From: Arachidicoccus terrestris
GTDB lineage: Bacteria; Bacteroidota; Bacteroidia; Chitinophagales; Chitinophagaceae
Direction of reading: 5' to 3'
Length of the DNA stretch: 64,000 nt
Assembly (NCBI RefSeq): GCF_020042345.1
Contig: NZ_CP083387.1
Location: forward strand, 2,480,001 to 2,544,000
Below are positions 16,858 through 61,143 of the stretch, in pieces. Below the pieces are notes generated by a model. The model had not been told where the DNA came from, ran no database searches, and was given only the letters and a program-made list of their open reading frames with translations. Position 1 is the first letter of the stretch. Each line of letters starts with the position of its first letter. The translations under genes and the position numbers were made by a program.

Positions 16858-16902
16858 CAGGACAGTGCGGGATGGTTGGATAAAAAATTTCTTTTATAAT
16901 TG
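16858..16902 (+). promoter_or_regulatory. Shared direct-repeat activator site and -7 box, GH106 promoter (site G)
   Basis: Direct repeat CAGGACAGTG-CGGGATGGTT (16858-16877, 10-bp period), then 17 bp, then TATAATTG (16895-16902), a near-match to the TAnnTTTG -7 box. The same architecture with identical 17-bp spacing occurs at six other promoters in the window. The second half-site here has CGGG in place of CAGG. Confidence 0.75.
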
Positions 16903-17077
16903 CATTATAATCGGAATTTAACGAATGTTCACTTGTTTTTGGGTGGTAGTGGACTGACCGGGCTAAACGGCACATGACAGCAATTGCTTTTAACCGTTTG
17001 CTGGTAACGGGTGTATGCAATACAACCTGGCTTATTTTTAAATAAATTGTTCAAATTTTTATTCAAGCAGTAAATCA

Positions 17078-19978
17078 ATGCATTCTCGTCATAAATGTAA
17101 AAACCGCATCTCTGTGTTTAAAAAAAGCCTGGGACTTGCTTTTGTTTCCTTTATAGCCTTGAGTACGAATGCTCATGCTCAATTGGAGTGGCCTGTTATT
17201 ACCCAGCAGGCAAAGCCTTGGGCACGTTGGTGGTGGGAAGGTAGCGCCGTTAATGAAAAAGACCTTTCTGATGTTTTGCATCTCTACAAAGACGCAGGGC
17301 TGGGGGGCCTTGAAATAACGCCTATCTATGGGGTGAAAGGAGAAGAGGCAGATAATATTCTATTTCTCTCTAAAAAGTGGATGCAGGTTTTTGATTACAC
17401 TTTGAAGGAGGGCAAAAAGCTGGATCTTGGAATGGACCTGGCAAATGCCACCGGATGGCCTTTTGGTGGCCCATGGGTAACAGATGCAGATGCCAGCAAA
17501 TCCATGGAATTCAAACAGTATACACTGCAAAAAGGCGAAAGCATCCAAGAGCCGATTACCTTTATACAAAAGGCCTTGGTGCGTGGTGAACACAGGCCTG
17601 CGGTAGATATTTCATTGATAAAAGATCCTATTAGCCTCAATAGCAGTGCTGACCTCCAAAAATGGGCATTGGATCAGGTACGCTTTCCCGTAAAATTACC
17701 GCTGATCTGCCTGATGGCCTATGATGAGAAAGGCCGTCAGACGGACTTAACTTCTTTGGTAGATAAAACGGGCCATCTCAATTGGAAAGCGCCTGCTGAC
17801 GGTTATAGGCTGTATGCGGTTTTTCAGGGGCTGCACGGAAAAATGGTAGAAAGAGCCGCACCCGGGGGAGAAGGCTTTGTAATTGATCATTTTTCCGCCG
17901 CCGCAGTAGACCATTATCTGGCGCATTTTGATTCAGCCTTTAATGGAGACGCATTAGATGGACTGCGCGGGTTTTTTAATGACTCTTATGAGGTGGACGA
18001 TGCAGCTGGTGAAGCAGATTTTACGCCGAAGCTATTTGGTGAATTTAAAGCGATGCATGGCTACGATTTAAAGCAATATTTGCCCCTGTTACTGGATAAA
18101 GATAACGAGACTGAGCAGGCGTCGCGGGTGTTGTCCGATTACCGGGAAACCATCGGCGATCTGCTTTTAAGGCATTTTACGGAAAAATGGCAACATTGGG
18201 GAAAATCAAAAGAGAAGCTGATCCGCAATCAATCGCACGGTTCTCCGGCTAATATTCTGGATCTTTACGCAGCTGTAGATATTCCCGAAACCGAAGGGAC
18301 AGATAAACTACGATTTAAGTTTGCTTCGTCTGCCGCAAATGTAACCGGAAAAACATTGACGTCCTCAGAATCTGCGACCTGGCTAAAAGATCATTTTCTT
18401 TCTTCTCTGGCGGATGTCAAAAAAGCAATTGACCTGTATTTCCTGGGCGGGGTTAACCATATATTTTATCATGGTGTGGCTTATTCTCCGGTGAACGCCG
18501 TCTGGCCGGGATGGTTATTCTATGCCGCCGTGCATTTTCAGCCGACCAACCCACAGTGGCATAACTTTTCTAAGCTTAATGAATATATCGCCCGCTGCCA
18601 GTCTTTTTTGCAAAACAGCGAGGCTGACAATGATGTGTTGCAGTATTTTCCGATTTATGATAGTTATGCGTCCAGAGGAAGATCATTATTAAAGCACTAT
18701 GACGGTATGAAAGGCTTTGAGGGGACGGCGTTTAAAAGTAATGCGGAGTGGATGCTGAATAATGGATATAGTTTTGATTTTATATCGGATCGTCAGATCG
18801 GCCAACTGAGTTTTGACGATGATGGGATTAAAACTGCCGGAGGCCACTATCAAACCATCTTGGTTTCCGCAGTTACCTACATGCCGGAACGTACTTTAGA
18901 GAAGATCCTGCAACTGGTCAGAGCAGGTGCCACGGTACTGGTATATGATCATTTGCCTGAAAGCGTCAATGGGCTTGGCCGGCAGGCAGGCAGACAAAAG
19001 AAATTTGATAACCTGATTCAGTCGCTGCGTTTTGCTACTTCAAAGCGGGGTATTCAGAAAGCCTCGCTTGGGAAAGGAACGGTATTGCTGTCTAATGATC
19101 TTGCCGCTTTACTGGCGGCCGGGAAGATAAGAAAAGAGACCATCAGTGATCAGACAGGCCTTCAGTTTATTCGCAGAAAGCAGGGTAATGGTCATTATTA
19201 CTTTATCGATAATCGTAGTGACAGTGCCTTTGAAGGCTGGGTAAGCTTGCAGGCAATTAAAAAAGGTGCAGCTTCTTATGCACTGTTTAGCCCTATGCGG
19301 CATAGTAGCGGGATAGCCCGTACCAGAGATATCAATGGCAAAAAAATGGTGCTGCTACAACTCCGGCCTTGGGAAAGTATTATTATTCAAGCGAGTACCG
19401 CCCCGGTCAGAGGGGCCGGATATGTCTATACAGAAAAGCTAGCTGACCCAATACCACTGAAAGGCACCTGGAAATTAAGCTTTAAATCGGGTGGGCCTGT
19501 CCTTCCTAAAGCTGTTACTATGAGTCAGTTACAGTACTGGTCGACCCTTTCTGATACCAACGCCCTTAACTTTTCAGGAACAGCAGATTATACACTCGAA
19601 TTTAAAAAGCCGATTCCTGACAACTCGGCAAAATGGTGGCGTTTAGACATGGGTGATGTAAAAGAAAATGCGGAAGTCTTTTTAAATGGTCAGAAGCTGG
19701 CGACACTGATCGGCCCCGATTTTACCCTGGATATTGACGATAATCTACTGAAAAAGAATAACCAGATAACGATTCGGGTATCCAATCTCATGGCTAACAG
19801 AATCCACTATATGGATAGAAGCGGCCTCAATTATAAGATGTTTTATAATATCAACTTCCCGGCTCACGAAGCGGAAAACAGAGGCAGGGATGGGTTATTT
19901 ACGACAATAAATTGGGATGTAAAGCCTTCGGGATTAACAGGCCCCGTCACCTTAACCCCAATTGGGCCCAAGCCCTAA
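17078..19978 (+). CDS. GH106 alpha-L-rhamnosidase, secreted
   Basis: Predicted GH106 alpha-L-rhamnosidase, a family known from Bacteroidota rhamnogalacturonan and RG-II loci. The 966-residue protein has a signal peptide ending ALSTNAHAQ, immediately followed by the family's N-terminal barrel hallmark PWARWWWEGSAVNEKDLSDVL and GGLEITPIYGVKG. Acid-rich barrel segments (GFFNDSYEVDDAAGEADFTPKLFGEF) and a C-terminal galactose-binding-like beta-sandwich (WWRLDMGDVKENAEVFLNGQKLATLIGP) are present; the overall length is near the family norm. It has its own copy of the shared promoter and precedes the rhamnose operon, so hydrolysis feeds free L-rhamnose to RhaT. The exact linkage attacked is unknown. 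Confidence 0.92.
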   Translation: MHSRHKCKNRISVFKKSLGLAFVSFIALSTNAHAQLEWPVITQQAKPWARWWWEGSAVNEKDLSDVLHLYKDAGLGGLEITPIYGVKGEEADNILFLSKKWMQVFDYTLKEGKKLDLGMDLANATGWPFGGPWVTDADASKSMEFKQYTLQKGESIQEPITFIQKALVRGEHRPAVDISLIKDPISLNSSADLQKWALDQVRFPVKLPLICLMAYDEKGRQTDLTSLVDKTGHLNWKAPADGYRLYAVFQGLHGKMVERAAPGGEGFVIDHFSAAAVDHYLAHFDSAFNGDALDGLRGFFNDSYEVDDAAGEADFTPKLFGEFKAMHGYDLKQYLPLLLDKDNETEQASRVLSDYRETIGDLLLRHFTEKWQHWGKSKEKLIRNQSHGSPANILDLYAAVDIPETEGTDKLRFKFASSAANVTGKTLTSSESATWLKDHFLSSLADVKKAIDLYFLGGVNHIFYHGVAYSPVNAVWPGWLFYAAVHFQPTNPQWHNFSKLNEYIARCQSFLQNSEADNDVLQYFPIYDSYASRGRSLLKHYDGMKGFEGTAFKSNAEWMLNNGYSFDFISDRQIGQLSFDDDGIKTAGGHYQTILVSAVTYMPERTLEKILQLVRAGATVLVYDHLPESVNGLGRQAGRQKKFDNLIQSLRFATSKRGIQKASLGKGTVLLSNDLAALLAAGKIRKETISDQTGLQFIRRKQGNGHYYFIDNRSDSAFEGWVSLQAIKKGAASYALFSPMRHSSGIARTRDINGKKMVLLQLRPWESIIIQASTAPVRGAGYVYTEKLADPIPLKGTWKLSFKSGGPVLPKAVTMSQLQYWSTLSDTNALNFSGTADYTLEFKKPIPDNSAKWWRLDMGDVKENAEVFLNGQKLATLIGPDFTLDIDDNLLKKNNQITIRVSNLMANRIHYMDRSGLNYKMFYNINFPAHEAENRGRDGLFTTINWDVKPSGLTGPVTLTPIGPKP

Positions 19979-20000
19979 TGTTAAAAGAAAATGACGGGGA

Positions 20001-20045
20001 CAGGATAGCACAGGATAGTCATAAACAATCATAAGTTTATTTTTG
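20001..20045 (+). promoter_or_regulatory. Shared direct-repeat activator site and -7 box, rhaT promoter (site A)
   Basis: CAGGATAGCA-CAGGATAGTC (20001-20020) is the cleanest tandem copy of the motif. After 17 bp comes TATTTTTG (20038-20045), a full match to TAnnTTTG. The -7 box is only 34 bp from the rhaT start, giving a short leader. Confidence 0.85.
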
Positions 20046-20079: not shown

Positions 20080-21156
20080 ATGCAGTTAATACTTGGGATC
20101 ATTTATCATTTCTTGGGAGGATTTGCTTCAGGAAGCTTTTATATTCCCTATAAGAAAGTAAAGGGCTGGGCCTGGGAATCCTTATGGATTGCTGGCGGTA
20201 TATTCTCCTGGCTGATCATTCCCTTTCTGGCTGCCTGGCTGACCATCCCGGATTTTACTGCAATAATCAGCCATGCGGACGCCCATACTATTACCATTAC
20301 CTATATATTTGGCGTACTTTGGGGAATAGGTGGCCTGACCTATGGACTGGGCGTACGGTATTTAGGAGTCGCATTAGGCAGCACGATTATTCTGGGGCTC
20401 TGCTCAGTGTTTGGATCCCTGATCCCTTCCGTATACTATAATTTTTACCCAGCCGAAGGGCATGATTCTTTTACAGATTTATTGCATAATACCTGGGGAC
20501 AGACCGTACTGCTGGGTATTCTGATTTGTGTTGTGGGTATCATTGTATGTGGCAAGGCGGGCATGCTGAAAGATAAAGATCTGCAAAAAGACACTGAATT
20601 AAAGAAAAAGGAAGAGTATAAGATTGGCCTTGGCCTGACTGTCGCTATTATCTCCGGTATATTAAGCGCCTGCTTCGCTTTCGGCATTGATGCAGGAAAA
20701 TCCATGGCTAATGAGGCCAACGATATATGGAAACTGACTCATACAGGTCAGGGAGAGTTTCTGTTTCAGAATAATGTCACCTACATTATTATATTATTGG
20801 GGGGACTGACCACTAATTTTATCTGGTGTATGATGCTGAACGCCCGCAACAGAACCTTTGGCGATTATACCAATAAGAAAACCCCTTTGATCAAGAACTA
20901 TTTATTCTGTGCACTTGCCGGAACGACCTGGTTCTTACAGTTCTTTTTTTATGGAATGGGGGAAAGCAGGATGGGTAATGGGCCAAGCTCCTGGATTCTG
21001 CATATGGCCTTTATCATCCTCGTCGCCAATTTGTGGGGCCTGGCTCTCAAAGAATGGAAAGGCGTGCAAAAGAGAACCTATGCCGCTATTTTGGCAGGGA
21101 TTGCCCTGATTATTATATCAGTTCTCGTCGTTGGTTACGGAAATTCATTAAAATAA
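20080..21156 (+). CDS. rhaT: L-rhamnose/H+ symporter RhaT
   Basis: Inner-membrane L-rhamnose-proton symporter of the drug/metabolite transporter superfamily. The 358-residue protein is almost entirely hydrophobic with about ten predicted membrane segments, close to the 344 residues of the E. coli protein. Family features include the N-terminal LGIIYHFLGGFASGSFYIPYKKVKGWAWE and VLWGIGGLTYGLGVRYLGVALGS, and the C-terminal ILVANLWGLALKEWKG. It is the first gene of the rhamnose operon, 35 bp before the aldolase/dehydrogenase gene, and is driven by the promoter at 20001-20045. The run of rhamnose enzymes downstream makes the assignment secure. Confidence 0.96.
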   Translation: MQLILGIIYHFLGGFASGSFYIPYKKVKGWAWESLWIAGGIFSWLIIPFLAAWLTIPDFTAIISHADAHTITITYIFGVLWGIGGLTYGLGVRYLGVALGSTIILGLCSVFGSLIPSVYYNFYPAEGHDSFTDLLHNTWGQTVLLGILICVVGIIVCGKAGMLKDKDLQKDTELKKKEEYKIGLGLTVAIISGILSACFAFGIDAGKSMANEANDIWKLTHTGQGEFLFQNNVTYIIILLGGLTTNFIWCMMLNARNRTFGDYTNKKTPLIKNYLFCALAGTTWFLQFFFYGMGESRMGNGPSSWILHMAFIILVANLWGLALKEWKGVQKRTYAAILAGIALIIISVLVVGYGNSLK

Positions 21157-21191
21157 AACATCATTAAATTAAAAAATAAACACAAATTGAT

Positions 21192-23312
21192 ATGTCTGAA
21201 GTAAAAACACAATTTAAACACGTAAGCTACTTATGGGATGACGACCAGGCAGCGAAACTGGCTGGCGATGAAGTCGCATTGCTGGTTTATCGTTCTAATT
21301 TGTTAGGTGCCGATTTACGTCTCACTAATTATGGAGGAGGGAATACCTCCTGTAAAGCGATGGCAAAGGATCCTCTCACGGGAAATGAAGTAGAGGTCAT
21401 GTGGGTAAAAGGAAGTGGCGGCGATCTGGGTACGATGAAAAGAAGCGGACTTGCAGCTTTATATGTTGACAGGTTAAGAGCGCTTAAGAATATTTACAGA
21501 GGAATTGAACATGAAGATGAAATGGTGGGTCTGTTTAATCACTGTATTTATGATCTGGCTAGCAAGGCACCTAGTATTGATACACCGTTACATGGGTTTT
21601 TACCATTTAAGCATATTGATCACCTGCACCCGGATGCTGCGATTGCCATCGCGGCAGCAAAAGATGGAAAGAAGATTACTCAGGAACTATTTGAAGGCAC
21701 CATCGGCTGGGTTGACTGGCAGAAACCGGGATTTGATCTGGGTTTACAATTGAAGCAATGTCTGGATGAGAACCCTGGTATACGGGGGATTATGCTGGGA
21801 TCCCATGGCCTGTTTACCTGGGGTGATACAGCCTATGAAAGCTATATCAATACGCTCGAGGTAATTGAACGTTGTGCAGACTATATTGAGGAGCATATTG
21901 GAAAAGATAAACCTGTATTTGGTGGTCAAAAGATAGAATCTCTGGCAAAACAACAGCGTCTGTCACAGGCGGCTGCTCTTGCGCCGGTTCTTAGAGGATT
22001 TTGTTCTTCCGAGCGGAAAATGTTGGGTCATTTTACGGATGATGACCGTGTTCTGCAATTTATCAACTCTAATGACCTGGACCGTTTAGCCCCTTTAGGT
22101 ACCAGTTGCCCGGATCATTTCTTAAGAACTAAAATTTCACCTCTGGTGCTGAACCTGGCGCCTGATGAAGATCTGAGTGACGTCAAGGCCATAAAAGAAA
22201 AGCTGCAGCCTCTGTTTGTGGATTACCGGAAGATGTATACCGAGTATTACGAGACTTGCAAACATCCGAACAGCCCGGCGATCCGTGATGCCAATCCGGT
22301 TGTTATTCTCTACCCGGGGGTGGGAATGTTTACTTTCTCCAAAGATAAACAAACTGCTCGTGTCGCCGCAGAATTCTATATCAACGCGATCAATGTAATG
22401 CGCGGATCTGAAGCTATTTCAGAATACACTTCGCTACCCCGTCAGGAAGCGTTCAATATTGAATATTGGTTACTGGAAGAAGCGAAGTTGCAGCGCATGC
22501 CCAAGCCTAAATCTCTGAGTGGGAGAATTGCATTGATCACCGGCAGTGCAGGTGGAATTGGTAAAGCCATCGCGAAGAAATTTGTAGAAGAAGGTGCCTG
22601 CGTGATTTTAAATGATGTTAACGAAGAGCGACTGGAAGGTGCTGTAGAAGAATTTAAAGGATTATTTGGTAAGGACGCAGTTGCCTCTACTACTTTAAAC
22701 GTCACCGATAATCAAAGTATCGTCGCTGCGTTTGACGCAACCGCTCTGGCATTTGGCGGTGTGGATATTGTTGTCAATAACGCAGGTATCAGCATTTCCA
22801 AATCCATCGAGGATCACTCCATTGAAGAGTGGGATAAGTTGTATGATATTTTAGTCAAAGGTCAATTCCTGGTTTCCAAGGCAGCCGCTGTCGTTTTGCG
22901 CAAGCAAGACATTGGCGGTGATATCGTCAATATCGTTTCCAAGAACTCGGTGGTCGCAGGCCCGAATAATGCGGGTTATGGCTCTGCAAAAGCAGCTCAG
23001 GCGCATCTGACCAGGCTTTTGGCAGCAGAACTCGGAAAAGATAAGATCCGGGTTAACACCGTGAATCCTGACGCAGTCATCGCTAACAGTAATATCTGGG
23101 CCGGCGGTTGGGCTGAAGGACGTGCAAAGGCTTATGGTATTACAGTAGATGAACTGCCTGCATATTATGCAAAAAGAACGCTTCTTAATGAAATCATTCT
23201 TCCCGAAGATATTGCCGATGCCTGTTATGCATTTGTTGGCGGTCTGTTGAATAAGTCAACAGGTAATATCCTGAATGTGGATGGTGGCGTAGCCATGGCT
23301 TTTGTTAGGTAA
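21192..23312 (+). CDS. rhaD: Bifunctional rhamnulose-1-phosphate aldolase/L-lactaldehyde dehydrogenase
   Basis: Fusion enzyme (the type called RhaEW in Bacillus) that cleaves L-rhamnulose 1-phosphate to dihydroxyacetone phosphate and L-lactaldehyde and oxidises the latter to L-lactate. Residues about 1-400 are a class II aldolase domain, with metal-ligand histidine segments TPLHGFLPFKHIDHLHPDA and GSHGLFTWGD. Residues about 440-706 are a short-chain dehydrogenase with the nucleotide motif ITGSAGGIGKA (about 448), NNAGIS, and the active-site YGSAKAA (Tyr about 596). The length, 706 residues, is that of the full fusion. It lies between rhaT and rhaI in the same orientation. A downstream L-lactate dehydrogenase fits L-lactate as the product. 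Confidence 0.95.
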   Translation: MSEVKTQFKHVSYLWDDDQAAKLAGDEVALLVYRSNLLGADLRLTNYGGGNTSCKAMAKDPLTGNEVEVMWVKGSGGDLGTMKRSGLAALYVDRLRALKNIYRGIEHEDEMVGLFNHCIYDLASKAPSIDTPLHGFLPFKHIDHLHPDAAIAIAAAKDGKKITQELFEGTIGWVDWQKPGFDLGLQLKQCLDENPGIRGIMLGSHGLFTWGDTAYESYINTLEVIERCADYIEEHIGKDKPVFGGQKIESLAKQQRLSQAAALAPVLRGFCSSERKMLGHFTDDDRVLQFINSNDLDRLAPLGTSCPDHFLRTKISPLVLNLAPDEDLSDVKAIKEKLQPLFVDYRKMYTEYYETCKHPNSPAIRDANPVVILYPGVGMFTFSKDKQTARVAAEFYINAINVMRGSEAISEYTSLPRQEAFNIEYWLLEEAKLQRMPKPKSLSGRIALITGSAGGIGKAIAKKFVEEGACVILNDVNEERLEGAVEEFKGLFGKDAVASTTLNVTDNQSIVAAFDATALAFGGVDIVVNNAGISISKSIEDHSIEEWDKLYDILVKGQFLVSKAAAVVLRKQDIGGDIVNIVSKNSVVAGPNNAGYGSAKAAQAHLTRLLAAELGKDKIRVNTVNPDAVIANSNIWAGGWAEGRAKAYGITVDELPAYYAKRTLLNEIILPEDIADACYAFVGGLLNKSTGNILNVDGGVAMAFVR

Positions 23313-23372
23313 TTTAAAGTAAGATAGTTTTGAATAGTGGGTGGAAGAAAGTTTCTGTGATGTGGAAACTGT

Positions 23373-23457
23373 ATTATTTTACACATTGTAATTTAGACAG
23401 GTATTGATTTTGATGAAGTGGGATGTGAACCCGTTGGATTACTTTGTGTAAAATAAT
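23373..23457. repeat. 13-bp perfect inverted repeat between rhaD and rhaI
   Basis: ATTATTTTACACA (23373-23385) is the exact reverse complement of TGTGTAAAATAAT (23445-23457); the arms are separated by 59 bp. It fills most of the 179-bp gap between the aldolase fusion and the isomerase genes and ends 34 bp before the rhaI start. In RNA it could form a long-looped stem that acts as a processing or attenuation element. It is not followed by a T tract, so it is not an ordinary terminator. Confidence 0.6.
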
Positions 23458-23491
23458 CTTCCTAAAACAATTAATCTTAAAAGAATAAAAC

Positions 23492-24766
23492 ATGCGTATA
23501 GATAAACAGCAAATTGCTTCCTTTAACGAAGGTTTGTTATCCGAACATACGAAACGTTTTGACTACATATCTTCATATATTAATGATGTCGATACGGTTA
23601 TAGAGAAGTTAGTGGCTTTTCAGATTGGCATTCCAAGTTGGGCATTAGGTGCGGGCGGTACACGTTTTGGCCGGTTTCATTTTGGCGGCGCGCCCAGTAC
23701 ACTTGAAGAAAAAATTGATGATGTGGGCTTATTACATGCCCTCAACCGCAATAGTGGTTCCATCTCCTTACATATCCCCTGGGATATCCCTGCAGATTAT
23801 GCTGCGATCAAGAAAGCGGCCGCAGATAATGAGCTGAAATTTGATGCGGTTAACTCCAATACGTTTCAAGATCAGCCTGATCAGCCTCTGAGTTATAAAT
23901 ACGGGTCACTGCAAAATGTGGACAAAGCCACTAGGAAGCAGGCTATTCAGCATAATATTGAAGTGATCAAGCATGGTGTGGAATTGGGATCTAAGGCATT
24001 AACGGTTTGGCTGGCGGATGGATCTTGCTTTCCCGGACAATTAAGTTTTAGGAGAGCCTTTGATAATACGCTGGAAAGCCTGCAGGAAATCTATAGTGCG
24101 CTTCCTGAAGATTGGAAGGTATTTGTTGAGTATAAAGCATTTGAGCCCAATTTTTATTCTACTACGGTAGGCGATTGGGGCCAATCTTATTTGTATGCCA
24201 GTAAATTAGGTAAGAAGGCATATACGCTGGTAGACTTGGGGCATCACTTACCTAATGCCAATATTGAACAGATTGTTGCTTTGTTACTAAATGAAGGTAA
24301 GTTAGGTGGTTTTCATTTTAACGATTCTAAATACGGGGATGATGATCTCACTGCCGGGAGCATTAAGCCTTATCAGCTTTTCCTTATTTTCAATGAATTG
24401 GTGGATGGTATGGATGCCCGCGGCATGAACCATGCAAGTGATCTCGGATGGATGATTGACGCTTCACATAACGTAAAAGATCCGCTGGAGGATCTGTTAC
24501 AGTCTGTGGAGGCAATAATGGCCGCCTATGCGCAGGCTTTATTGGTTGATAAAAAGGCGCTGGAAGATGCCAGAAACAACAGCGATGTTGTCAGGGCCCA
24601 GGAGATCCTTCAGAATGCCTTCAGGACAGATGTCAGACCGCTCGTAGCGGAAGCAAGAAGAAGAGCAGGGGGTGCGTTACAACCACTATCTTTGTATCGG
24701 CAACTGGATGTAAGAGCGCAATTGATTAAAGAGAGAGGGGAAGATTCTAAAACAACCGGATTGTAA
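23492..24766 (+). CDS. rhaI: L-rhamnose isomerase (RhaI type)
   Basis: Converts L-rhamnose to L-rhamnulose in the cytoplasm. The 424-residue TIM-barrel protein is of the RhaI type, as in Pseudomonas stutzeri and many Bacteroidota, and not the E. coli RhaA type. The four expected metal ligands are visible in order: E213 (FVEYKAFEP), D248 (VDLGHHLPNAN), H275 (GGFHFNDSKYGDDDLTAGS) and D323 (LGWMIDASHN). This spacing matches the ligand spacing of the P. stutzeri enzyme. It is third in the rhamnose operon and the kinase gene follows after 3 bp. Confidence 0.95.
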   Translation: MRIDKQQIASFNEGLLSEHTKRFDYISSYINDVDTVIEKLVAFQIGIPSWALGAGGTRFGRFHFGGAPSTLEEKIDDVGLLHALNRNSGSISLHIPWDIPADYAAIKKAAADNELKFDAVNSNTFQDQPDQPLSYKYGSLQNVDKATRKQAIQHNIEVIKHGVELGSKALTVWLADGSCFPGQLSFRRAFDNTLESLQEIYSALPEDWKVFVEYKAFEPNFYSTTVGDWGQSYLYASKLGKKAYTLVDLGHHLPNANIEQIVALLLNEGKLGGFHFNDSKYGDDDLTAGSIKPYQLFLIFNELVDGMDARGMNHASDLGWMIDASHNVKDPLEDLLQSVEAIMAAYAQALLVDKKALEDARNNSDVVRAQEILQNAFRTDVRPLVAEARRRAGGALQPLSLYRQLDVRAQLIKERGEDSKTTGL

Positions 24767-24769
24767 AAA

Positions 24770-26146: not shown

Positions 26147-26215
26147 TAGTTGGATAACGTATAAATCAGATCGTAAGTTGCTAAGATAATACAGAAAATT
26201 TCCCGTGTTTCGAAT

Positions 26216-26223
26216 TACATTTG
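26216..26223 (+). promoter_or_regulatory. Possible -7 box upstream of lldD
   Basis: TACATTTG is an exact match to TAnnTTTG, 42 bp upstream of the L-lactate dehydrogenase start. A CGGAC/GTCCG inverted repeat follows it. No good -33 element is seen, so lldD may also be read through from the rhamnose operon. Confidence 0.35.
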
Positions 26224-52546: not shown

Positions 52547-52861
52547 TTAGGGCATATAGAACATTTCTACAAGTGGAACGCTAACGGGAGAATGGTCATC
52601 GTTTGTTTCCATAAGATCCTTCATGTAGGTCCACCATTTTCGCATAATCTCTTCGGTTTGGAGCCCTTCCAATTTATCAGGGTCATCAGCGGTGAGAATC
52701 GCAAAAAGTATATCTGTCTCATCATCTAAAAATATGGAGTAGTCACTGATGCCATATGATTTTAACAGAGCCGCCAGTTCCGGCCATATCGGATTATGAC
52801 GTTTTTTATATTCCGCTACGAAGCCTTTGTAAAGCTTCATTTTTGTCGCAACTTTAGCCAT
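52547..52861 (-). CDS. rhaM: L-rhamnose mutarotase RhaM
   Basis: Small cytoplasmic enzyme that interconverts alpha- and beta-L-rhamnose, supplying the anomer used by the isomerase. The 104-residue protein aligns without shifts to E. coli RhaM over EYKKRHNPIWPELAALLKSYG; the catalytic Tyr18 and His22 are at the same numbers as in E. coli, which supports the start at 52861. The downstream KWWTYMKDLMETNDDHSPVS and the terminal EMFYMP are also family features. It is the third gene of the GH2-GH105-rhaM operon and starts 21 bp after GH105, so it is separated from the rest of the rhamnose pathway by 25 kb but tied to it by the shared promoter motif. Confidence 0.96.
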   Translation of the reverse strand: MAKVATKMKLYKGFVAEYKKRHNPIWPELAALLKSYGISDYSIFLDDETDILFAILTADDPDKLEGLQTEEIMRKWWTYMKDLMETNDDHSPVSVPLVEMFYMP

Positions 52862-52882
52862 AGCAGTAACGCTTAAATATGT

Positions 52883-54058
52883 TTAGTTTAATTTATAGAG
52901 TTCAGAACCGGCTAAGAGTAAACATCCCAGTCCAAAATCTTCAAAATCAGGTTGATGATCATAGCCGACTGGCTGGCTGTCTTTAGGTTCCTTTCCGGTT
53001 CCCTGAACATAACCCAGAAAGCCGTTGGGGTGAACACAGCTGACCAGTGACTGCCATGCCAGGCTGATGGGTTTGAGATACCTGGCCTTCTTGAGATATC
53101 CATTGTTTACGCCCCAGGCCATCGCATAGGTAAATAAGGCTGTTCCCGTAAGTTCCTTCCCGCCGAAATGTGTCGGATCTGCAAGGCTTACATTCCAATA
53201 TCCTTTCGGGTCCTGATATTTTAAAATGGCGTGCATCATCATTATATAGTCCTGAAGATAGTCCTTATAATGGGGGGCATTTTTGGGCAACTCGTTCAGG
53301 ACGCGCACCAAAGCTGCCGCAACCCAGCCATTACCCCGGCTCCAGTAACAGTCTTCACCGTTAGGTTCCTTGTACGGAGGCATAAAATCTTTGTCTCTCC
53401 ACCATAAACCGGTTTTCGTGTCAAACAGTCCGATTTTGTTCAGCTCACTTCTGGTATAATGATACATTTGCCACATTCGGTCGTAATACTTCTGATCTCC
53501 CGTGATTTTTCCCAGTTTGGCAAATACAGGCATTCCCATCTGAATGGCATCCACCCAAGACCAGTCGTCTATTTTGTCAGTAGCGAGCATGTTGCCAATG
53601 GTGGCTTTGATATTGGACATCAGCGCAGTATCTTTTTTAAGAATGGCCAGGTCAATATAAGTCTGTCCAGCACACTGGTTGTCGGCATTTCTGGTTGTAT
53701 TTCCATCTCTAAGTGACCAGTGATGTGCATTGCCCCAGTCCATGGCATATTTAATATATGTTGGATTCGGATCGATTTTATGGAAGGCCATTAACCCTTC
53801 GTAATATACTGCTCTTGTCCAGATATGACTGGGCCAGCTTTTCTTTTTAGACGGAACATAGATGATTTTACCTACGTCCTGCCACTTATCCATAAAATAA
53901 TTATTGGCAACCCGTAATGTTTTGACAATGGCTGATTTGTTTGAAATTGATGATGCCTGCTTATCATGTGTCGCCTGCGCCTTTGTCAGCCCTGGTGCCA
54001 TCATAGCTAATGAAAGAAGACCGGCTGCGGCCCTGGTAAAGTTTGAAAACCTTTGCAT
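52883..54058 (-). CDS. GH105 unsaturated rhamnogalacturonyl hydrolase
   Basis: Removes the unsaturated galacturonyl residue left by pectate or rhamnogalacturonan lyases. The 391-residue protein has a signal peptide ending GLTKAQ and the (alpha/alpha)6 barrel of GH105: SHIWTRAVYYEGLMAFHKIDP, ADNQCAGQTYIDLAIL, WQMYHYTRSELNKIGLFDTKTGLWWRDKDF, CYWSRGNGWVAAALVRVLNELP (family signature), and DFEDFGLGCLLLAGSELYKL at the end. It lies between GH2 and rhaM. It would act after the PL9-like lyase encoded divergently from this operon. Confidence 0.93.
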   Translation of the reverse strand: MQRFSNFTRAAAGLLSLAMMAPGLTKAQATHDKQASSISNKSAIVKTLRVANNYFMDKWQDVGKIIYVPSKKKSWPSHIWTRAVYYEGLMAFHKIDPNPTYIKYAMDWGNAHHWSLRDGNTTRNADNQCAGQTYIDLAILKKDTALMSNIKATIGNMLATDKIDDWSWVDAIQMGMPVFAKLGKITGDQKYYDRMWQMYHYTRSELNKIGLFDTKTGLWWRDKDFMPPYKEPNGEDCYWSRGNGWVAAALVRVLNELPKNAPHYKDYLQDYIMMMHAILKYQDPKGYWNVSLADPTHFGGKELTGTALFTYAMAWGVNNGYLKKARYLKPISLAWQSLVSCVHPNGFLGYVQGTGKEPKDSQPVGYDHQPDFEDFGLGCLLLAGSELYKLN

Positions 54059-54133
54059 ACTGGAAGTTATTTTAAATATGTGAATGAATTGTTTTTGCGG
54101 TATCGCCTTTGTTTTTAGTATTGCCCTGATTAA

Positions 54134-57031
54134 TTATTTGGTGAGATCTGCCTTCGGCTTGAGTTCATCCGGGCTATCTCTCGCAAACGGGTCAAACGTG
54201 AATTTTGACGGCTTTGTTATTAAGTCTTTTATTAATTGTAGGCCTATTTGCTGTTTGGGATTAAATGCCGGCGATAACATATATTTTTCCAGACTATAAA
54301 GAAGCTGTTGACCTGCCGGGTTATTGGATGGCTCTTTTCCCTTAATGTTTAAACTGCTGACTATTATTTTTCCTTTACCCACTTTTGCTTCAAACAGGCT
54401 GGCCAGCCTTCTGCTTAAAAACCAGGTATCGATGGGCTGAACCAATGGCCTGAAATTTTTCGGGAAATCTTCCAGATGCATCACCTGAGCTCTGTTTACC
54501 AGTTGCCACCACTGGAGGTCACTATGATAAGATGTTGGAAAGTCTCGGAATGCTGGATTTTTGGGATCCAAAACAAAGCCGGTTGTATGCGGTGGCCGCA
54601 TCTTAAACCAGGAGGTGTTCCAGAAGACTGGTAAGAAATGTTGTACGATTTCTTTGCCTTTGACGACTTCACCGGCAACATTTAAAAAGACTTTACCCCC
54701 TGCATTCAATACCTGTTCAGCTTTGCTGTCGAGTCTGGTCGTGTAGTAAATGGAACTTATATCCAGCTTGGGCAGATCTTTAGGAAAGACCCATATGTTC
54801 CAGTTGTTTTTATAGGAAGTGCCTTTTATTCCCAGCGTTACAACGAGCCGTTGCGCCCGGTGAATAGTGGAAAGGTCAAAACTGATATCCCCGACTGGTG
54901 TATTTGTGCCCGCGATAATGTCTTTGTGAAAGTCGCCCGATTGCAGGATCCTGCCTAAGGAATCGGCAATATTCCAATAAATATCCGCTCCCTTTATATC
55001 TGTTTCGGTATAATGGAAAATCTCTGCGGATCCCCAGAAGGTCTCATCATTGGTATAAACAAAACTATGTGTTTTAAGCAGCGGTACCGTGCTGTTGCAG
55101 AACTTGGAAAATATGTTTGCGTCAGTATAGCCCTTTTCTTTCCAAAAAACATTTAAAACGCCTACCAGGGCTGTTCCCTGGCCTGAATAATCATTAAGCG
55201 CCAGTAACTGGAAGCCGCCGTTTAACGGTGTGCGGAAGGATTTTTCTATCTCATTTTTATAACATAAGGCCTGCAATTTACCGGAAGCCATCAAAAAAGA
55301 TCCCGCTTCATTGCCCATGCCCTGATCTTTTAGGATATCCCGGAACATTTCAAAATTTCTGGCTTCATAGAGACCGGTATACCGGCCGATTTCTCTGAAA
55401 TCTGGAAAGACGCAATATTGCCCCATTTCGTGGGCAATATAAGGCACATTGTATTTCTTGATCGCATCGGTATAATCGGAATAACTCTCCGGCTGATGAT
55501 TCCACGAGAGCCCCCTGGCTCCGGACTTAATCATGTATTGATTGGCCGGAACAATCGGCCAGCTCATAGCAACAGAGGCACCCGTATATACGCGCCTGCT
55601 GTCTTTTTGTTCCCAATAATGAATGAACTTGGTCAGATATTCAACCTGATGGCCTCCCCGAGGTTCGTTGCCGTAGGCCAACATGCAATAGGAAGGGTGG
55701 TTACCGTAATATTTTTCCATCCTGTCTGTCTCATCGAAGATATACTGATCCACGGGCTTGCCGTCTCCCAGCGACGTGCCGTGGTTGGCCCAGCTTGGCC
55801 CCTCTGGCTGTAAATATATCCCTACCAGATCGGCTGCTTCAAATGCTGCTTCCGGAGGGCAGTAGGAATGAAAACGCATATGATTTAATCCGTAGCTTTT
55901 GCAGATTTTAAATATCCGGATCCAGTCTTTTTTATCCATGGGTGGATAGCCCGTGAGTGGAAAATCGCAGTTTTCCACCGTTCCACGCAAAAAAGTCTTG
56001 TGGCCGTTTATTTCAAATTGCTTTCCTTTGACATTAAAGTCCCGCATTCCAAAGCTTACCTGTTTTTCGGATCGGGTGCCGTCTTTATTGATTAGTACGA
56101 CCGTCAATTGATATAACGCCGGGTGAAATTCGCTCCAGAGCAGCACCTCTTTGCCGAGGTCATAATTAATAAGAATCGAGTCCTTAGATTTAATTTTTAT
56201 CAGTTTTGTGGTTAAGGACTTGACAATGTCCTGTTTTGGGCTATTGTAGCTTTTAGCTGAAAGCACAATTGATTTTGCATTGTCAATATTGCCCGACAAA
56301 GACAAATGAATCGTGGCACTGTGATTTTCAATATCCGGATATACCTGGACCTCCTCGATGGCTGTCATTGGGTTTGATCGCAATTCCATTTTGCCAATAA
56401 TGCCATTCCAGTTCCCCTGTGTCTGGTCGGTGACACTGTGGGAATCCTTACCGACATTAATGGTTGTAAGCCGGTTGTCGATACGGATAGTCAGTATATG
56501 TCTGCCAGGGGTTGCTATTGTTGAAAGGTCGTACTCATGTGGGGCGACCAGACTATTTCTGGTGCCTAAACGTTTATTGTCGAGCCACACGGTGGTTTCC
56601 GTATGACATCTTTCCAGAAATAATTTGACTTGTGTGTTTTGCCAAGAATCCGGGATGGTAATCTCTTTTTGATACCAGGCTGCACCGGTGTAATGATATT
56701 TAGGTGTTAACCAGAAAGGAAACATAGGGATATCCTGGTTTCTGTATTTAGCCATTCGTGGATTAAAATACCAGCTACTGTCGTAAATGCTGGCAGTCCA
56801 TGTGGTATTTAAGGATACTTTGTCGCCTTTGTTGTTTTCAAGCATGGAACCTGGTAGATATACCGAATCCTTAAGTGTGTTGTCAAACCATTTCTGAATA
56901 ATACCCTGATCGGTTGGATCTATGGCAAATGACCATTTGCCTGCAATGGAAATAACTGACTGAGCCTCTGAGGAAATGAGGGTGAATGAACAAAAAATAA
57001 ACGATAAAAGACAATAAAGGATCCTGTTCAT
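54134..57031 (-). CDS. GH2-family glycosidase, secreted
   Basis: 965-residue member of GH2 (beta-galactosidase/beta-glucuronidase clan GH-A). Signal peptide ends LISSEAQ. Order: N-terminal jelly-roll (KYHYTGAAWYQKEITIPDSWQ, HTETTVWLDNKRLG), immunoglobulin-like domain, then the TIM barrel with FEINGHKTFLRGTVENCDFPLTGYPPMDKKDW, NHMRFHSYCPPEAAFEAADLVGIYLQPEGPSW, the acid/base motif AYGNEPRGG, and the probable nucleophile Glu in IAHEMGQYCVFPD. The C-terminal part is beta-rich. In pectin loci GH2 enzymes act as beta-galactosidases or beta-glucuronidases; the exact sugar cannot be read. First gene of the minus-strand operon, under the shared promoter at 57070-57114. Confidence 0.9.
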   Translation of the reverse strand: MNRILYCLLSFIFCSFTLISSEAQSVISIAGKWSFAIDPTDQGIIQKWFDNTLKDSVYLPGSMLENNKGDKVSLNTTWTASIYDSSWYFNPRMAKYRNQDIPMFPFWLTPKYHYTGAAWYQKEITIPDSWQNTQVKLFLERCHTETTVWLDNKRLGTRNSLVAPHEYDLSTIATPGRHILTIRIDNRLTTINVGKDSHSVTDQTQGNWNGIIGKMELRSNPMTAIEEVQVYPDIENHSATIHLSLSGNIDNAKSIVLSAKSYNSPKQDIVKSLTTKLIKIKSKDSILINYDLGKEVLLWSEFHPALYQLTVVLINKDGTRSEKQVSFGMRDFNVKGKQFEINGHKTFLRGTVENCDFPLTGYPPMDKKDWIRIFKICKSYGLNHMRFHSYCPPEAAFEAADLVGIYLQPEGPSWANHGTSLGDGKPVDQYIFDETDRMEKYYGNHPSYCMLAYGNEPRGGHQVEYLTKFIHYWEQKDSRRVYTGASVAMSWPIVPANQYMIKSGARGLSWNHQPESYSDYTDAIKKYNVPYIAHEMGQYCVFPDFREIGRYTGLYEARNFEMFRDILKDQGMGNEAGSFLMASGKLQALCYKNEIEKSFRTPLNGGFQLLALNDYSGQGTALVGVLNVFWKEKGYTDANIFSKFCNSTVPLLKTHSFVYTNDETFWGSAEIFHYTETDIKGADIYWNIADSLGRILQSGDFHKDIIAGTNTPVGDISFDLSTIHRAQRLVVTLGIKGTSYKNNWNIWVFPKDLPKLDISSIYYTTRLDSKAEQVLNAGGKVFLNVAGEVVKGKEIVQHFLPVFWNTSWFKMRPPHTTGFVLDPKNPAFRDFPTSYHSDLQWWQLVNRAQVMHLEDFPKNFRPLVQPIDTWFLSRRLASLFEAKVGKGKIIVSSLNIKGKEPSNNPAGQQLLYSLEKYMLSPAFNPKQQIGLQLIKDLITKPSKFTFDPFARDSPDELKPKADLTK

Positions 57032-57069: not shown

Positions 57070-57114
57070 TAAAAATAATAACAAACGAGGGTTTGTCCGT
57101 CCTGTACCGTCCTG
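57070..57114 (-). promoter_or_regulatory. Shared direct-repeat activator site and -7 box, GH2-GH105-rhaM promoter (site E)
   Basis: On the minus strand CAGGACGGTA-CAGGACGGAC (57114 down to 57095), 17 bp, then TATTTTTA (57077 down to 57070), one mismatch from TAnnTTTG. The leader to the GH2 start is short, about 38 bp. Confidence 0.8.
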
Positions 57115-57504: not shown

Positions 57505-57549
57505 CAGGATGGTACAGGACAGTTGATCGTAGCCGATATTTTATTTTCG
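57505..57549 (+). promoter_or_regulatory. Shared direct-repeat activator site and -7 box, PL9-like gene promoter (site D)
   Basis: CAGGATGGTA-CAGGACAGTT (57505-57524), 17 bp, then TATTTTCG (57542-57549), one mismatch from TAnnTTTG. The leader to the start codon is about 125 nt. Confidence 0.83.
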
Positions 57550-57674: not shown

Positions 57675-60600
57675 ATGAAAGGAATTTTACTATTGATCGC
57701 AGTTTATTTATTGTCCAATGGAATCCCTGTATCGGGACAATCCACATTGAATCCAGACGGAACGCACACCTATTTTATAGCGACAGACGGAAATGATAGT
57801 AATAATGGTTCAATTTCCAGCCCTTTTGCTACATTGATGCGCGCACATAGGAATCTTGTTGCCGGTGATACTGTTTTTATCCGGGGTGGTGATTATAAAA
57901 TACCTGCAGCGGTAGTTCCTGCTACTACCGATAAAAGTGGCTTATATGCTGATATTAATTATTTTGATAAGGCTGGAACCGCCAACATGAATATCTGCAT
58001 CTGGGGGTACAAAGGCGAACGGCCGGTCTTTGATTTTTCCGAAGTTAAACCAGCAAATCAGCGGGTTACAGCATTTTTCGTTACCGGTGATTATTATTAT
58101 TTTAAGAATTTTGAGGTGACAGGAGTGCAGGTGACTATACTGACTCATACTCAATCTGAATGTTTTAGAAACGAGGATGGTAATTATAATAGATATGAAA
58201 ACCTTTCCATGCATGACGGACAGGCTATTGGATTTTATCTTACCAATGGCATAGGTAATATTGTTCGGAATTGCGACGCTTATAACAACTGCGACGTTAC
58301 CTCTGAAGGAGGCGCAGGAGGCAATGTAGACGGATTTGGCTGTCACCCTTCTCGGGAATCCGGTATGGGTAATAAATTTATAGGCTGCAGAGCCTGGCTT
58401 AACAGTGACGATGGCTACGATCTGATTAATGCCTATGCTGCCGTTACCTTTGACAGCTGTTGGGCTTTTTATAACGGCTATTCTAAAGACGCGGCAGGCA
58501 ATCTGGTCTCAAGGGGGGATGGAAATGGTTTCAAATCCGGAGGATACGGTATGCCGGATGTTGTTACAAAATATCCACATGATTCTATCCCGCATCATAT
58601 TGTTGAACATTGCCTTGCCTATTATAACAAGTCATCGGGCTTTTATGCCAACCATCATCTGGGCGGAAACTATTATTTGAATAATTCCGCTTACCGGAAC
58701 GGAACTAATTTTAATATGGTGAATAGAAAATCTCCTGAGGAAGATTTCGATGTTCCAGGCTATGATCATGTCCTGATTAATAATCTTTCCTATGCTCCCA
58801 GAAGCACAGGTGCTGATTTAAGAAATCTTGATAAAAGTCTAAGTACGGATGAAAATAATTCATTTACAGAACCTGTTATTTTAGGTGCCGACGATGATTT
58901 TAATAGCCTTGACGCGGCGCAGTTGGAACTCTCCAGGCAGTCCGGAGGACAATTGCCAGAGATAGATTTTCTGACACTTAGGACAGATAAGTTTATTGAC
59001 AAAGGGCAAGACCTGGGTTTTCCTTATTACGGGGCTGCACCCGACTTAGGATACCATGAGACAACTGTTCCTCCTGTCATTATACCCACGGATCCGAATT
59101 TAAATCCAGATGGCACACATACCTATTTCGTTGCACCCGACGGCAGCGATGATGATAACGGAACAATTTCAGCACCGTTTGCGACAATTATGTTTGCCAA
59201 TGGTAAAATTGTGCCGGGCGATACAGTTTTTATCCGGGGTGGTAGATACAAGGTTGCTGCTGACGTGGTGGCTGCAACAATGGATGGAGGGAAATATTTT
59301 GACGTGAATTTTTTTAATCAAAAAGGCAGCCCTGATCATAACTTCTATATCTGGGGATATAAAAATGAGCGCCCCGTATTTGATTTTTCCGATGTCAGGC
59401 CAGCAGGTCAGGGGGTAAATGCCTTCTACGTCACGGGTAGCTATTATTACTTTAGAAATATCGAAGTAACAGGGCTTCACACAGCTCTGTCCGGGGAAAA
59501 TAAAGCTTCCGGATTTCGTAACAACAGAGGTAACCATAACATTTTCGAAAACCTATCTGTTCATGATGGTCAGGTCAATGGCTTCTATATTACGCAAGGG
59601 ATAGGCAATCTGCTCCATAATTGTGATGCCTTTAATAATTATGTTGACGGAGGAGCGGTAGATGGCTTTGTGTGCCAGCCGTCCAGTACAGGAGGTAAGA
59701 ATAACCAGATTATCGGCTGCAGGGCATGGCACAACAGCGATGATGGGTTCGATCTCAGCTTCGCCTACACTTCTGTAATTCTTGATAGCTGTTGGGCGTT
59801 TGAAAACGGCTATTCAGAGAATCCGGACGGGTCGCTGACGGTTCGTGGAGACGGCAATGGTTTCAAAACAGGGGGATATGGCATGCAGGACATAGTTACC
59901 AAATACCCTGACCCAATACCACAGCATGTTATAGAGCACTGTTTAGCTTATAATAATAAACGCGCCGGTTTTTATGCCAATGATCATCTGGGGGGAAACC
60001 TCTATTACAATAATACGGCCTATAAGAACGATATCAATTTTGATATGGTAAACAGAAAATCTGTTAATGAAAATATTGAAGTTGCCGGTTATGGTCATGT
60101 ATTAAAAAATAATATTTCTTATAGTCCGCGGACAGCAGATGCTGAGATCGTTAATCTGGATCAAACTTTGAGCATGGATACATGCAATTCTTTCTCTGCT
60201 CCAATGATAGCTGTTACCGACCATGACTTCAATAGTCTGGATGCGACAAAACTGACATCAGATAGAAAAACGGATGGTGGACTGCCCGAAGTTGAATTTC
60301 TAACTTTGAAAACCAATAAACTTGTCGATAAGGGGGTGAATGTCGGACTGGAATATAATGGCAATGCGCCGGATCTGGGGTATGCTGAGTCCTCTATAAC
60401 TCCACAGTCATCAACTATTTATAGTTCCTCTTTTAATGGGCATATACTGGATGGAAAGGCTGTGCTTCATTGGGCAACCGCCAATGAAACCGGAAATAAA
60501 GGGTTCGAAATTCAAAGAAGCCCGAATGGAATCCCGGGCTGGCAGACAATAGCTTTTGTCAGCGGGCATGATGATACTGAAAACCGGAAAGGGTACTCCT

Positions 60601-60986
60601 ATCGTTTTATTGACAATGAACCGCTTAACACGCTTACATATTATAGATTGGTTCAAATTGTGCTCAGCGGAGCGCCTCATTATAGCGATGCTATTTCTCT
60701 GACCCCGAGTGGCAAACAGGCGAAGGAAGGCGTCATTTTATATCCAAACCCAGTTTCAAGGGGAACAAGTACTATTACGTTGAGAACTGAAAAAGCTATA
60801 GAAGGAAAAGCCTTAGTATCAATCTATAATGCGAGCGGAAGAGTTGTTTATCAATCTCCATTGAATGGTGGGTCGCGTGAATATAAAGTCAAGCTTCCCA
60901 GCCTCATCCCCGGAATCTATTATCTGAAAGTAGGCACCCACAGTAAAATAGTAGCAAGCGCGCATTTTATTGTTAATAAAAATTAA
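57675..60986 (+). CDS. Tandem-duplicated PL9-like polysaccharide lyase with T9SS sorting domain
   Basis: 1103-residue secreted protein with signal peptide (LLLIAVYLLSNGIPVSGQ). It contains two homologous right-handed beta-helix units with a 451-residue period: the first from about residue 25 (LNPDGTHTYFIATDGNDSNNG), the second from about 476 (LNPDGTHTYFVAPDGSDDDNG). Both carry DTVFIRGG, GNGFK(S/T)GGYGM, CRAW(L/H)NSDDG(Y/F)DL and the closing APDLGY. The overall pattern matches PL9-type pectate/rhamnogalacturonan lyases. After an Ig-like segment (residues about 940-1010) comes a T9SS type A C-terminal domain (LYPNPVSRGTSTITL ... GIYYLKV), implying export by the type IX system and surface attachment. 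It would feed GH105 and the SusC/D systems. Which of the two units is active is not known. Confidence 0.85.
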   Translation: MKGILLLIAVYLLSNGIPVSGQSTLNPDGTHTYFIATDGNDSNNGSISSPFATLMRAHRNLVAGDTVFIRGGDYKIPAAVVPATTDKSGLYADINYFDKAGTANMNICIWGYKGERPVFDFSEVKPANQRVTAFFVTGDYYYFKNFEVTGVQVTILTHTQSECFRNEDGNYNRYENLSMHDGQAIGFYLTNGIGNIVRNCDAYNNCDVTSEGGAGGNVDGFGCHPSRESGMGNKFIGCRAWLNSDDGYDLINAYAAVTFDSCWAFYNGYSKDAAGNLVSRGDGNGFKSGGYGMPDVVTKYPHDSIPHHIVEHCLAYYNKSSGFYANHHLGGNYYLNNSAYRNGTNFNMVNRKSPEEDFDVPGYDHVLINNLSYAPRSTGADLRNLDKSLSTDENNSFTEPVILGADDDFNSLDAAQLELSRQSGGQLPEIDFLTLRTDKFIDKGQDLGFPYYGAAPDLGYHETTVPPVIIPTDPNLNPDGTHTYFVAPDGSDDDNGTISAPFATIMFANGKIVPGDTVFIRGGRYKVAADVVAATMDGGKYFDVNFFNQKGSPDHNFYIWGYKNERPVFDFSDVRPAGQGVNAFYVTGSYYYFRNIEVTGLHTALSGENKASGFRNNRGNHNIFENLSVHDGQVNGFYITQGIGNLLHNCDAFNNYVDGGAVDGFVCQPSSTGGKNNQIIGCRAWHNSDDGFDLSFAYTSVILDSCWAFENGYSENPDGSLTVRGDGNGFKTGGYGMQDIVTKYPDPIPQHVIEHCLAYNNKRAGFYANDHLGGNLYYNNTAYKNDINFDMVNRKSVNENIEVAGYGHVLKNNISYSPRTADAEIVNLDQTLSMDTCNSFSAPMIAVTDHDFNSLDATKLTSDRKTDGGLPEVEFLTLKTNKLVDKGVNVGLEYNGNAPDLGYAESSITPQSSTIYSSSFNGHILDGKAVLHWATANETGNKGFEIQRSPNGIPGWQTIAFVSGHDDTENRKGYSYRFIDNEPLNTLTYYRLVQIVLSGAPHYSDAISLTPSGKQAKEGVILYPNPVSRGTSTITLRTEKAIEGKALVSIYNASGRVVYQSPLNGGSREYKVKLPSLIPGIYYLKVGTHSKIVASAHFIVNKN

Positions 60987-61051
60987 ATCAATTTTCTATT
61001 TTCTAAAAAAAATAAGAATATTGTTTGTATAATAAAACATTATAAATCAAG

Positions 61052-61071
61052 GTTCTATTTAAAAATAGAAC
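61052..61071. terminator. AT-rich hairpin after PL9-like gene
   Basis: GTTCTATTT-AA-AAATAGAAC is a perfect 9-bp stem with a 2-base loop (effectively a shorter stem with a larger loop). It is followed by CAAAAATATTT and not a T tract, so its role as terminator is uncertain. Confidence 0.4.
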
Positions 61072-61098
61072 AAAAATATTTAAAGAATAGACGAAAAG

Positions 61099-61143
61099 CA
61101 GCACAGTACAGGACGGTTAAAACTAAAAGAAAACATAATATTG
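61099..61143 (+). promoter_or_regulatory. Shared activator site (degenerate first half) and -7 box, FAS1/SusC promoter (site F)
   Basis: CAGCACAGTA-CAGGACGGTT (61099-61118) has a weaker first half-site. After 17 bp comes TAATATTG (61136-61143), one mismatch from TAnnTTTG. The conserved spacing is the main support. The leader to the FAS1 gene is about 300 nt. Confidence 0.65.

Follow-up and report, generated by a model that had tools for sequence, protein, structure and literature searches.

The window analysed here is a 64,000-nucleotide stretch of the Arachidicoccus terrestris genome (contig NZ_CP083387.1, positions 2,480,001 to 2,544,000, forward strand), in which a recurrent promoter-like element precedes genes for rhamnose and pectin use. 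Coordinates are window positions unless given as genome or locus (L) positions, and G000 denotes the genome of the window (4.9 Mb). At all seven sites (7/7), the element opens with a 20-bp direct repeat of 10-bp period, which a 17-bp spacer separates from a TAnnTTTG-like -7 box. An initial annotation, made from the letters alone, had reported seven such repeats with a constant gap before the box, and every repeat was found where it had been placed (the minus-strand copy at 57095–57114), each departing from CAGGAYRGTRCAGGAYRGTT by 0–2 mismatches and with the gap to the quoted box exactly 17 bp at 7/7. Chance is excluded as a source of the sites: the repeat pattern alone matched 18 times across the whole own genome (≤3 mismatches) as compared to twice for a reversed-pattern control.

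The gene names given earlier to the downstream operons (GH106, the rhamnose operon, two SusC/D operons, GH2-GH88/105-rhaM, PL9 and FAS1) were retained, mostly on Pfam matches (Table 1). The rhaI open reading frame (ORF) had no Pfam match at 1e-8 and is presumed to be rhaI from its operon position. A SusC gene follows the FAS1 gene just beyond the window edge (Pfam), and the SusD gene next to it was named by eye. Another SusC/D pair (12075–16699), beside GH78 and LacI genes, adjoins the regulon without a direct-repeat promoter and is probably under other control.

Table 1. Direct-repeat promoter sites, genes downstream of the window sites, and further sites in the own genome
Feature	Coordinates	Strand	Details
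Site 1	16858..16902	+	Repeat 16858-16877, 17-bp spacer, box TATAATTG 16895-16902; upstream of GH106
Site 2	20001..20045	+	Repeat 20001-20020, 17-bp spacer, box TATTTTTG 20038-20045; upstream of rhaT-rhaEW-rhaI-rhaB-FMN dehydrogenase
Site 3	27689..27733	+	Repeat 27689-27708, box TATCTTCG 27726-27733; upstream of SusC/D-GH28-DUF4450
Site 4	37858..37902	+	Repeat 37858-37877, box TAGATTTG 37895-37902; upstream of SusC/D-esterase-GH28-GH43
Site 5	57070..57114	-	Repeat 57114-57095, box TATTTTTA 57077-57070; upstream of GH2-GH88/105-rhaM
Site 6	57505..57549	+	Repeat 57505-57524, box TATTTTCG 57542-57549; upstream of PL9
Site 7	61099..61143	+	Repeat 61099-61118, box TAATATTG 61136-61143; upstream of FAS1, then SusC outside the window
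GH106 alpha-L-rhamnosidase	17078..19978	+	Pfam
Rhamnose operon: rhaT, rhaEW, rhaI, rhaB (FGGY), FMN-dependent dehydrogenase	20080..27408	+	Pfam; rhaI by position
SusC/D, GH28, DUF4450 protein	27928..37699	+	Pfam
SusC/D, esterase/deacetylase, GH28, GH43	38135..48929	+	Pfam
GH2, GH88/105, rhaM	52547..57031	-	Pfam; rhaM 52547-52861
PL9-like lyase	57675..60986	+	Pfam
FAS1-domain protein	61428..63659	+	Pfam
Further site	1,075,290 (genome)		Upstream of GH28; 16-bp spacing
Further site	1,608,383 (genome)		Upstream of oligogalacturonate lyase PL22
Further site	2,561,444 (genome)		Upstream of GH2-type gene; by eye and counterpart in L139
Further site	2,575,222 (genome)		Upstream of SusC/D; by eye and counterparts L158, L162
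Twelfth site	2,581,025 (genome)

Extent of the regulon and spacing of its promoters

Among the 18 own-genome matches to the repeat pattern, 12 have at most two mismatches, namely the seven window sites and five new ones; the six with three mismatches fit TAnnTTTG at 17 bp in just 0–3 of 6 letters and look like chance. A sequence-only model built from 65 sites of other genomes and none of the own (33 of the 65 from congeners or congener counterparts) returned twelve sites at E ≤ 2.3e-4, and the next match (E 0.08) spans part of the model only, in each case among 150 scored of 3716 first-look candidates. Applied to the window with filters off, the model recovered the seven sites and nothing else below E 0.36. 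Absent from the initial claim, the five further sites provide an independent test, and four of them place the box at 17 bp; in the fifth the spacing is 16 bp and the box reads TATCTTTA.

A single pectin/rhamnose region of 84 kb contains ten of the twelve own sites, and the remaining pair are those upstream of GH28 and the oligogalacturonate lyase. The longest PL22 ORF begins just before its site, and the real start must therefore be downstream. Promoters of genome G002 that share the spacer letters of the twelfth site precede FAS1/SusC genes (L135, L165), and another G002 site precedes SusC/D-like frames (L098). Wherever the downstream gene could be read (eleven sites), it belongs to pectin or rhamnose use or is a SusC/D or FAS1 gene of that cluster. 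The single rhamnogalacturonan/rhamnose regulon suggested in the initial annotation is well supported by the twelve sites and by the fitting targets of all eleven that can be read. A LytTR response regulator near 2,592,300 was set aside as a candidate reader of the repeat; it recurs beside the cluster only in G000, G002 and G004 among twelve genomes compared.

A sequence logo and matrix were built from 54 of 67 sites (≤2 mismatches), 12 having been dropped because the box at 17 bp matched in fewer than 4/6 letters, and one more because it was a duplicate. Because these sites were selected by a box at 17 bp, the spacing claim rests instead on a search of the fetched stretches in which the box was allowed at any distance from 0 to 44 bp with a 5-of-6 match required. 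The box then fell at 17 bp for 11 of 12 sites in the own genome, the twelfth being at 16 bp, and for 31/33 sites in three other Arachidicoccus genomes (2/33 at 16 bp). In eight other genera, with chance matches and inner units of tandem arrays counted, 9/21 were at 17 bp and 3/21 at 16 bp. Fetched sites of G014, G013, G059 and G081 have no clear box at 17 bp and were interpreted as chance matches or decayed sites; the totals of this search and of the linkage count below (132) include them. The GH28 promoter site has 16-bp spacing in G000, G002 and G004, and a DeoR gene (L027 8510–9259) ends about 30 bp before it (9291) in G000 and G004.

Palindromes occur at some of these promoters. One, CAATCGATTG, lies 51 bp before the LacI gene of the window (8197–9216, minus strand), at 9267–9276, and also within the 17-bp spacer of the twelfth own-genome site (L025 18045) and of two G002 sites (L114 13028, 19036); it may serve as a LacI operator interposed between the activator site and the -7 box, which would place these promoters under combined control. 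A second, TTTACAAATAAACGTTTGTAAA, directly follows the -7 box of the same promoters (L025 18070–18091, L114 12991–13012). The LacI protein itself was considered and rejected as the protein that reads the repeat: its head is of true LacI type (31.1 bits, cut-off 27), and it shows no useful likeness to the GntR proteins described below.

Distribution and half-site variation

In a set of 119 genomes of relatives, the own included, the repeat with at most two mismatches matched 144 times in 50 genomes, as compared to 6 matches for the reversed pattern. The exact pattern of repeat, spacer and box was found at 37 loci of an 84,980-genome collection, spanning Arachidicoccus, Flavobacterium, Sphingobacterium, Pedobacter, Adhaeribacter, Rufibacter, Arenibacter, Kriegella, Paraflavisolibacter and metagenome-assembled genomes (MAGs) of Chitinophagaceae, all of which we take to belong to Bacteroidota. 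Many of these loci are flanked by rha genes, SusC/D, GH78, GH28 or GH88/105, judged by similarity to window proteins. Half-site letters differ by lineage (CAGGA, CATGA, AAGGA), while the 10-bp period and 16–17-bp spacing are kept; Flavobacterium rhaT promoters have AAGGA in unit one, and many genera of the own family have CATGA in both units. The CATGA variant with its box gave 10 exact matches in the 119-genome set and none for the reversed pattern, preceding rhaT in nine cases and GH78 in the tenth. In G019, G034 and G051, some sites are arrays of three or four units in tandem, and the box follows 17 bp after the end of the last one.

In Sphingobacterium (L134, L142, L144, L155, L159), the same promoter precedes a gene for an extracytoplasmic function (ECF) sigma factor, identified by Pfam in L134 and by sequence likeness in the other four, followed by SusC/D, with GH78 upstream in several. 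This arrangement is possibly a cascade. ECF promoters typically have fixed 16–17-bp spacing, and the near half-site might accordingly be the -35 element of such an alternative sigma factor, for which the Sphingobacterium gene could be cited. A conserved second unit 10 bp upstream is not expected of an ECF promoter, and the downstream box is the housekeeping TAnnTTTG (PMC9723704), leaving this explanation with next to no probability.

A candidate regulator of the GntR family

In two Pedobacter and one Rufibacter, a 343-residue GntR/LacI-sensor protein is encoded directly before the motif and rhaT or rhaEW, and in Arenibacter a relative lies near rhaEW. This protein, termed RhaR-G, belongs to the GntR family and has about 340 residues; like AraR, it joins a GntR winged helix at the N-terminus to a LacI/periplasmic-binding-protein-like sensor at the C-terminus. 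The PF00392 score was above the cut-off (27) in both own copies (P0006, 40.2; P0007, 29.9) as well as in P0002, P0003 and P0004; for PF13377 (cut-off 26.5), P0006 (28.4), P0007 (27.0) and P0003 (35) scored above and P0002 (26.4) and P0004 (20.1) below. None of these five RhaR-G-type proteins had a Pfam match to an aminotransferase-like domain, and NCBIfam MocR models hit RhaR-G mainly in the N-terminal part, far below cut-off. A structure prediction from three sequences (mean pLDDT, predicted local distance difference test, of 65) contributes domain order only; the fold search with this low-confidence model was led by LacI-type folds.

A profile built from three of the Pedobacter/Rufibacter/Arenibacter-type proteins detected RhaR-G in 44 of the 119 genomes (cut-off E 1e-25) and in 23/23 named motif-bearing genomes. 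Of the 23, 4 are profile source genomes or near kin of one, and kinship inflates contrasts of this kind. The 23 were picked from the 37 loci, leaving out nine loci of two already-covered Arachidicoccus genomes and five MAG contigs. Linkage counts for more than presence or absence in naming RhaR-G. Among the matches listed (to about E 1e-64, 50 places outside the own genome), RhaR-G is no more than 10 kb away from 12 of the 132 motif sites of other genomes (0.76 expected) and no more than 2 kb away from 5/132 (0.18 expected), given uniform placement in 4.5-Mb genomes. CATGA sites lie within about 300 bp of RhaR-G in six genomes (G064, G020, G049, G033, G043, G014) and within 10 kb in a seventh (G039); three lie away from it (G026, G071, G021).

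The link was also examined from the regulator outward, by scoring the 400 bp before rhaT or rhaEW, at 16- or 17-bp spacing only, in the 30 of 50 regulator loci having such a start. Of these regions, 24 reached 14 bits and 22 reached 20 bits, as compared to 0/600 first-order Markov control regions at 14 bits (best, 3.0); many of the 30 loci are close kin, and the 24 are not independent events. Excluding the three loci that had suggested the link (L231–L233), 21/27 reached 14 bits. The six misses were L179 (13.6), L200 (11.9), L194 (9.1), L245 (1.3), L196 (-8.9) and L189 (-24.8 bits), the last of which has a CATGA site near the regulator, outside the scored stretch.

A DeoR-family RhaR was our first hypothesis for the reader, on account of the 10-bp period and the DeoR gene beside site 1,075,290. 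Published motifs of DeoR-type RhaR are likewise direct repeats with a 10–11-bp period (PMC3870299), the gene adjoins the GH28 site in both G000 and G004, and 2/132 sites lie within 2 kb of a DeoR gene (0.13 expected; among matches listed, to 8e-41, 53 places). Within 10 kb, the same listing gives still only 2/132 (0.53 expected) as against 12 for RhaR-G. Moreover, a close DeoR ortholog (75%) was found in G004 only, G001 and G002 having 34–37% homologues and motif-rich G051 none at E 1e-20. The hypothesis was rejected on ortholog distribution and linkage, and we now regard it as very improbable.

A further candidate reader is an AraC-type activator or hybrid two-component system (HTCS): the Bacteroides RhaR is of AraC type, HTCS motifs are direct repeats (PMC3870299, PMC3878776), and the initial annotation had likened the two half-sites to those of AraC-type domains. 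The own genome has at least 54 AraC-domain matches, and in G000, G002 and G004 the GH28 site has a GlxA-like AraC gene about 3 kb away. The AraC-type reading is not supported by the period, which is 10 bp here and about 21 bp in the AraC-type RhaR and HTCS motifs as published (PMC3870299, PMC3878776), and tandem arrays of three to four 10-bp units exist. In many genera it is instead the GntR/LacI-sensor protein that adjoins the motif and the rhamnose operon; no adjoining AraC gene was seen at the Pedobacter, Rufibacter and Flavobacterium rha sites (genes named by similarity or eye). Among the AraC-domain matches listed for seven motif-bearing genomes, the only sites seen by eye to have an AraC gene at 10 kb or less were the GH28 site of the three congeners and one other location in G004. 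We regard an AraC-type or HTCS reader as improbable. The GlxA-like gene was rejected individually, as its distribution departs from that of the motif (a 69% homologue in motif-poor G003, ≤54% in motif-bearing G001, G019 and G051).

Arachidicoccus has two RhaR-G paralogs by a tree in which many inner forks are weak and bootstrap is not settled. Copy B (G000:C1:971011–972030, minus strand) has the segment ISRDTAEKGY as in the Pedobacter protein, and copy A (G000 1466388–1467410) has IGRNTVEKAY there. The unlinked copy B is probably the regulator in the own genome. At the promoter divergent from copy A (G000, G004) and the adjoining GH78 promoter (G001), the 20+17 layout is kept with different half-site letters; each of these promoters is the top match of its own intergenic region and scores low with the B-type matrix (-2.0, -9.6 and 6.5 bits), which suggests that protein and half-site letters may change together between paralogs. 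In G002, a one-contig assembly with 16 sites, the regulator copy (L211) is split over two adjacent reading frames, by sequencing error or a real break.

Discussion

Taken as a whole, the repeat is probably the operator of a rhamnose/rhamnogalacturonan-I regulon, most likely read by RhaR-G, which would act as an activator. Several observations weigh against this assignment. The regulator gene is unlinked to the sites in Arachidicoccus; G005 has RhaR-G and just a single, weak site; in G003 a relative adjoins rhaB, and no site precedes rhaEW; and the Sphingobacterium RhaR-G loci examined have no site or rha gene close by. Conversely, G021 (CATGA site before rhaT) and G081 (1-mismatch site) lack RhaR-G at E 1e-25. 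Presence or absence alone fails to single out RhaR-G, which occurs in 17 of the 18 genomes with a 0–1-mismatch site, a DeoR homologue occurring in 15. The usual GntR operators, furthermore, are palindromes.

The -33 consensus of Bacteroidota promoters contains TTTG, and none is conserved at that position in the 54-site alignment. The -7 box of Flavobacterium promoters covers -12 to -5 (PMC9723704), which would put the repeat at about -49 to -30. The near unit would occupy about -39 to -30 and the far unit -49 to -40, where the -33 element would be. Sugar-bound RhaR-G would bind the repeat directly, two or more winged helices docking head-to-tail on 10-bp units, one per helical turn, and would recruit RNA polymerase to promoters with a good -7 box and no recognisable -33 TTTG; the effector may be rhamnose or a derivative, assumed from the target genes. 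Most helix-turn-helix proteins are symmetric dimers requiring dyad operators (PMC9723621). Head-to-tail docking is nonetheless plausible because GntR relatives using direct repeats exist (PMC4494728, PMC5320631).

Positive control is suggested by the combination of fixed spacing and absent -33 box, since an activator that touches polymerase needs a fixed distance and a repressor does not. An activator in place of the -33 element is thus plausible and favoured by the near-invariant spacing. The same protein might instead repress, blocking polymerase at the -33 region until released by sugar; most characterised sugar-sensing GntR/LacI-type proteins are repressors, AraR too (Protein Data Bank titles call it one). 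We consider repression unlikely, given 17 bp at 11/12 own and 31/33 congener sites and the missing TTTG.

RhaR-G and its repeat resemble several known systems in part. AraR binds palindromic operators and represses. RhaR-G resembles this Bacillus subtilis protein (GntR family, AraR subfamily) in joining a GntR winged helix to a LacI-type sugar sensor: the AraR DNA-binding domain (4egy) matches it at 1.2e-9, and the effector domain (3tb6) matches the low-confidence model by fold at 2e-5, with no sequence match between the sensors at 1e-3. In contrast to AraR, the operator here is a direct repeat with a period of 10 bp, set at a constant place in the promoter; as all aligned sites are direct repeats rather than palindromes, RhaR-G is classed as sharing the AraR architecture only and not as an AraR ortholog. 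MocR-type GntR activators (TauR, PdxR, GabR) also use a winged helix and direct repeats spaced by whole helix turns, and several activate (PMC5320631, PMC4494728); the TauR unit CTGGACYTAA is likewise 10 bp (PMC5320631). They carry an aminotransferase-like domain, RhaR-G a LacI-type sensor. RhaR (AraC family) and HTCS of Bacteroides thetaiotaomicron share the phylum, the rhamnose/rhamnogalacturonan targets and direct-repeat operators (PMC3870299, PMC3878776), but belong to unrelated families and have the longer period noted above. DeoR-family RhaR of Rhizobium, Chloroflexus and Thermotoga resembles the present system in its repeat before rhamnose genes and differs in protein family, the Rhizobium protein being a repressor (PMC3870299).

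Within the open-licence literature searched (titles and abstract openings; subscription papers and RegPrecise lay outside the search), no paper reports either the motif or a rhamnose regulator of GntR type from Bacteroidota. Closest are two papers (PMC3870299, PMC3878776) on Bacteroides with an AraC-type RhaR; PMC5507952 treats GntR regulators of sugar use in Halomonas and others, and in the text covered none of these is for rhamnose. A broader generalisation, to which we give somewhat less than even chances, is that GntR/LacI-sensor activators are widespread in Bacteroidota other than Bacteroides, substituting for the -33 element by docking head-to-tail on an array of two to four 10-bp units whose distance from the -7 box is constant. 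The letters would vary by paralog and lineage with the geometry fixed, giving a plug-in sugar-regulon promoter, in places with a LacI operator in the spacer.

In Flavobacterium, Pedobacter, Arachidicoccus and relatives, for which the literature searched lists neither a regulator nor an operator, rhamnose and rhamnogalacturonan-I use is likely controlled by RhaR-G through the direct repeat. If so, the phylum would have two unrelated rhamnose regulators, AraC-type in Bacteroides and GntR/LacI-sensor elsewhere, and a GntR/LacI-sensor protein would act on direct repeats at the -33 position. The 20+17+8 layout offers a simple rule with which to find such regulons and to build inducible Bacteroidota promoters.

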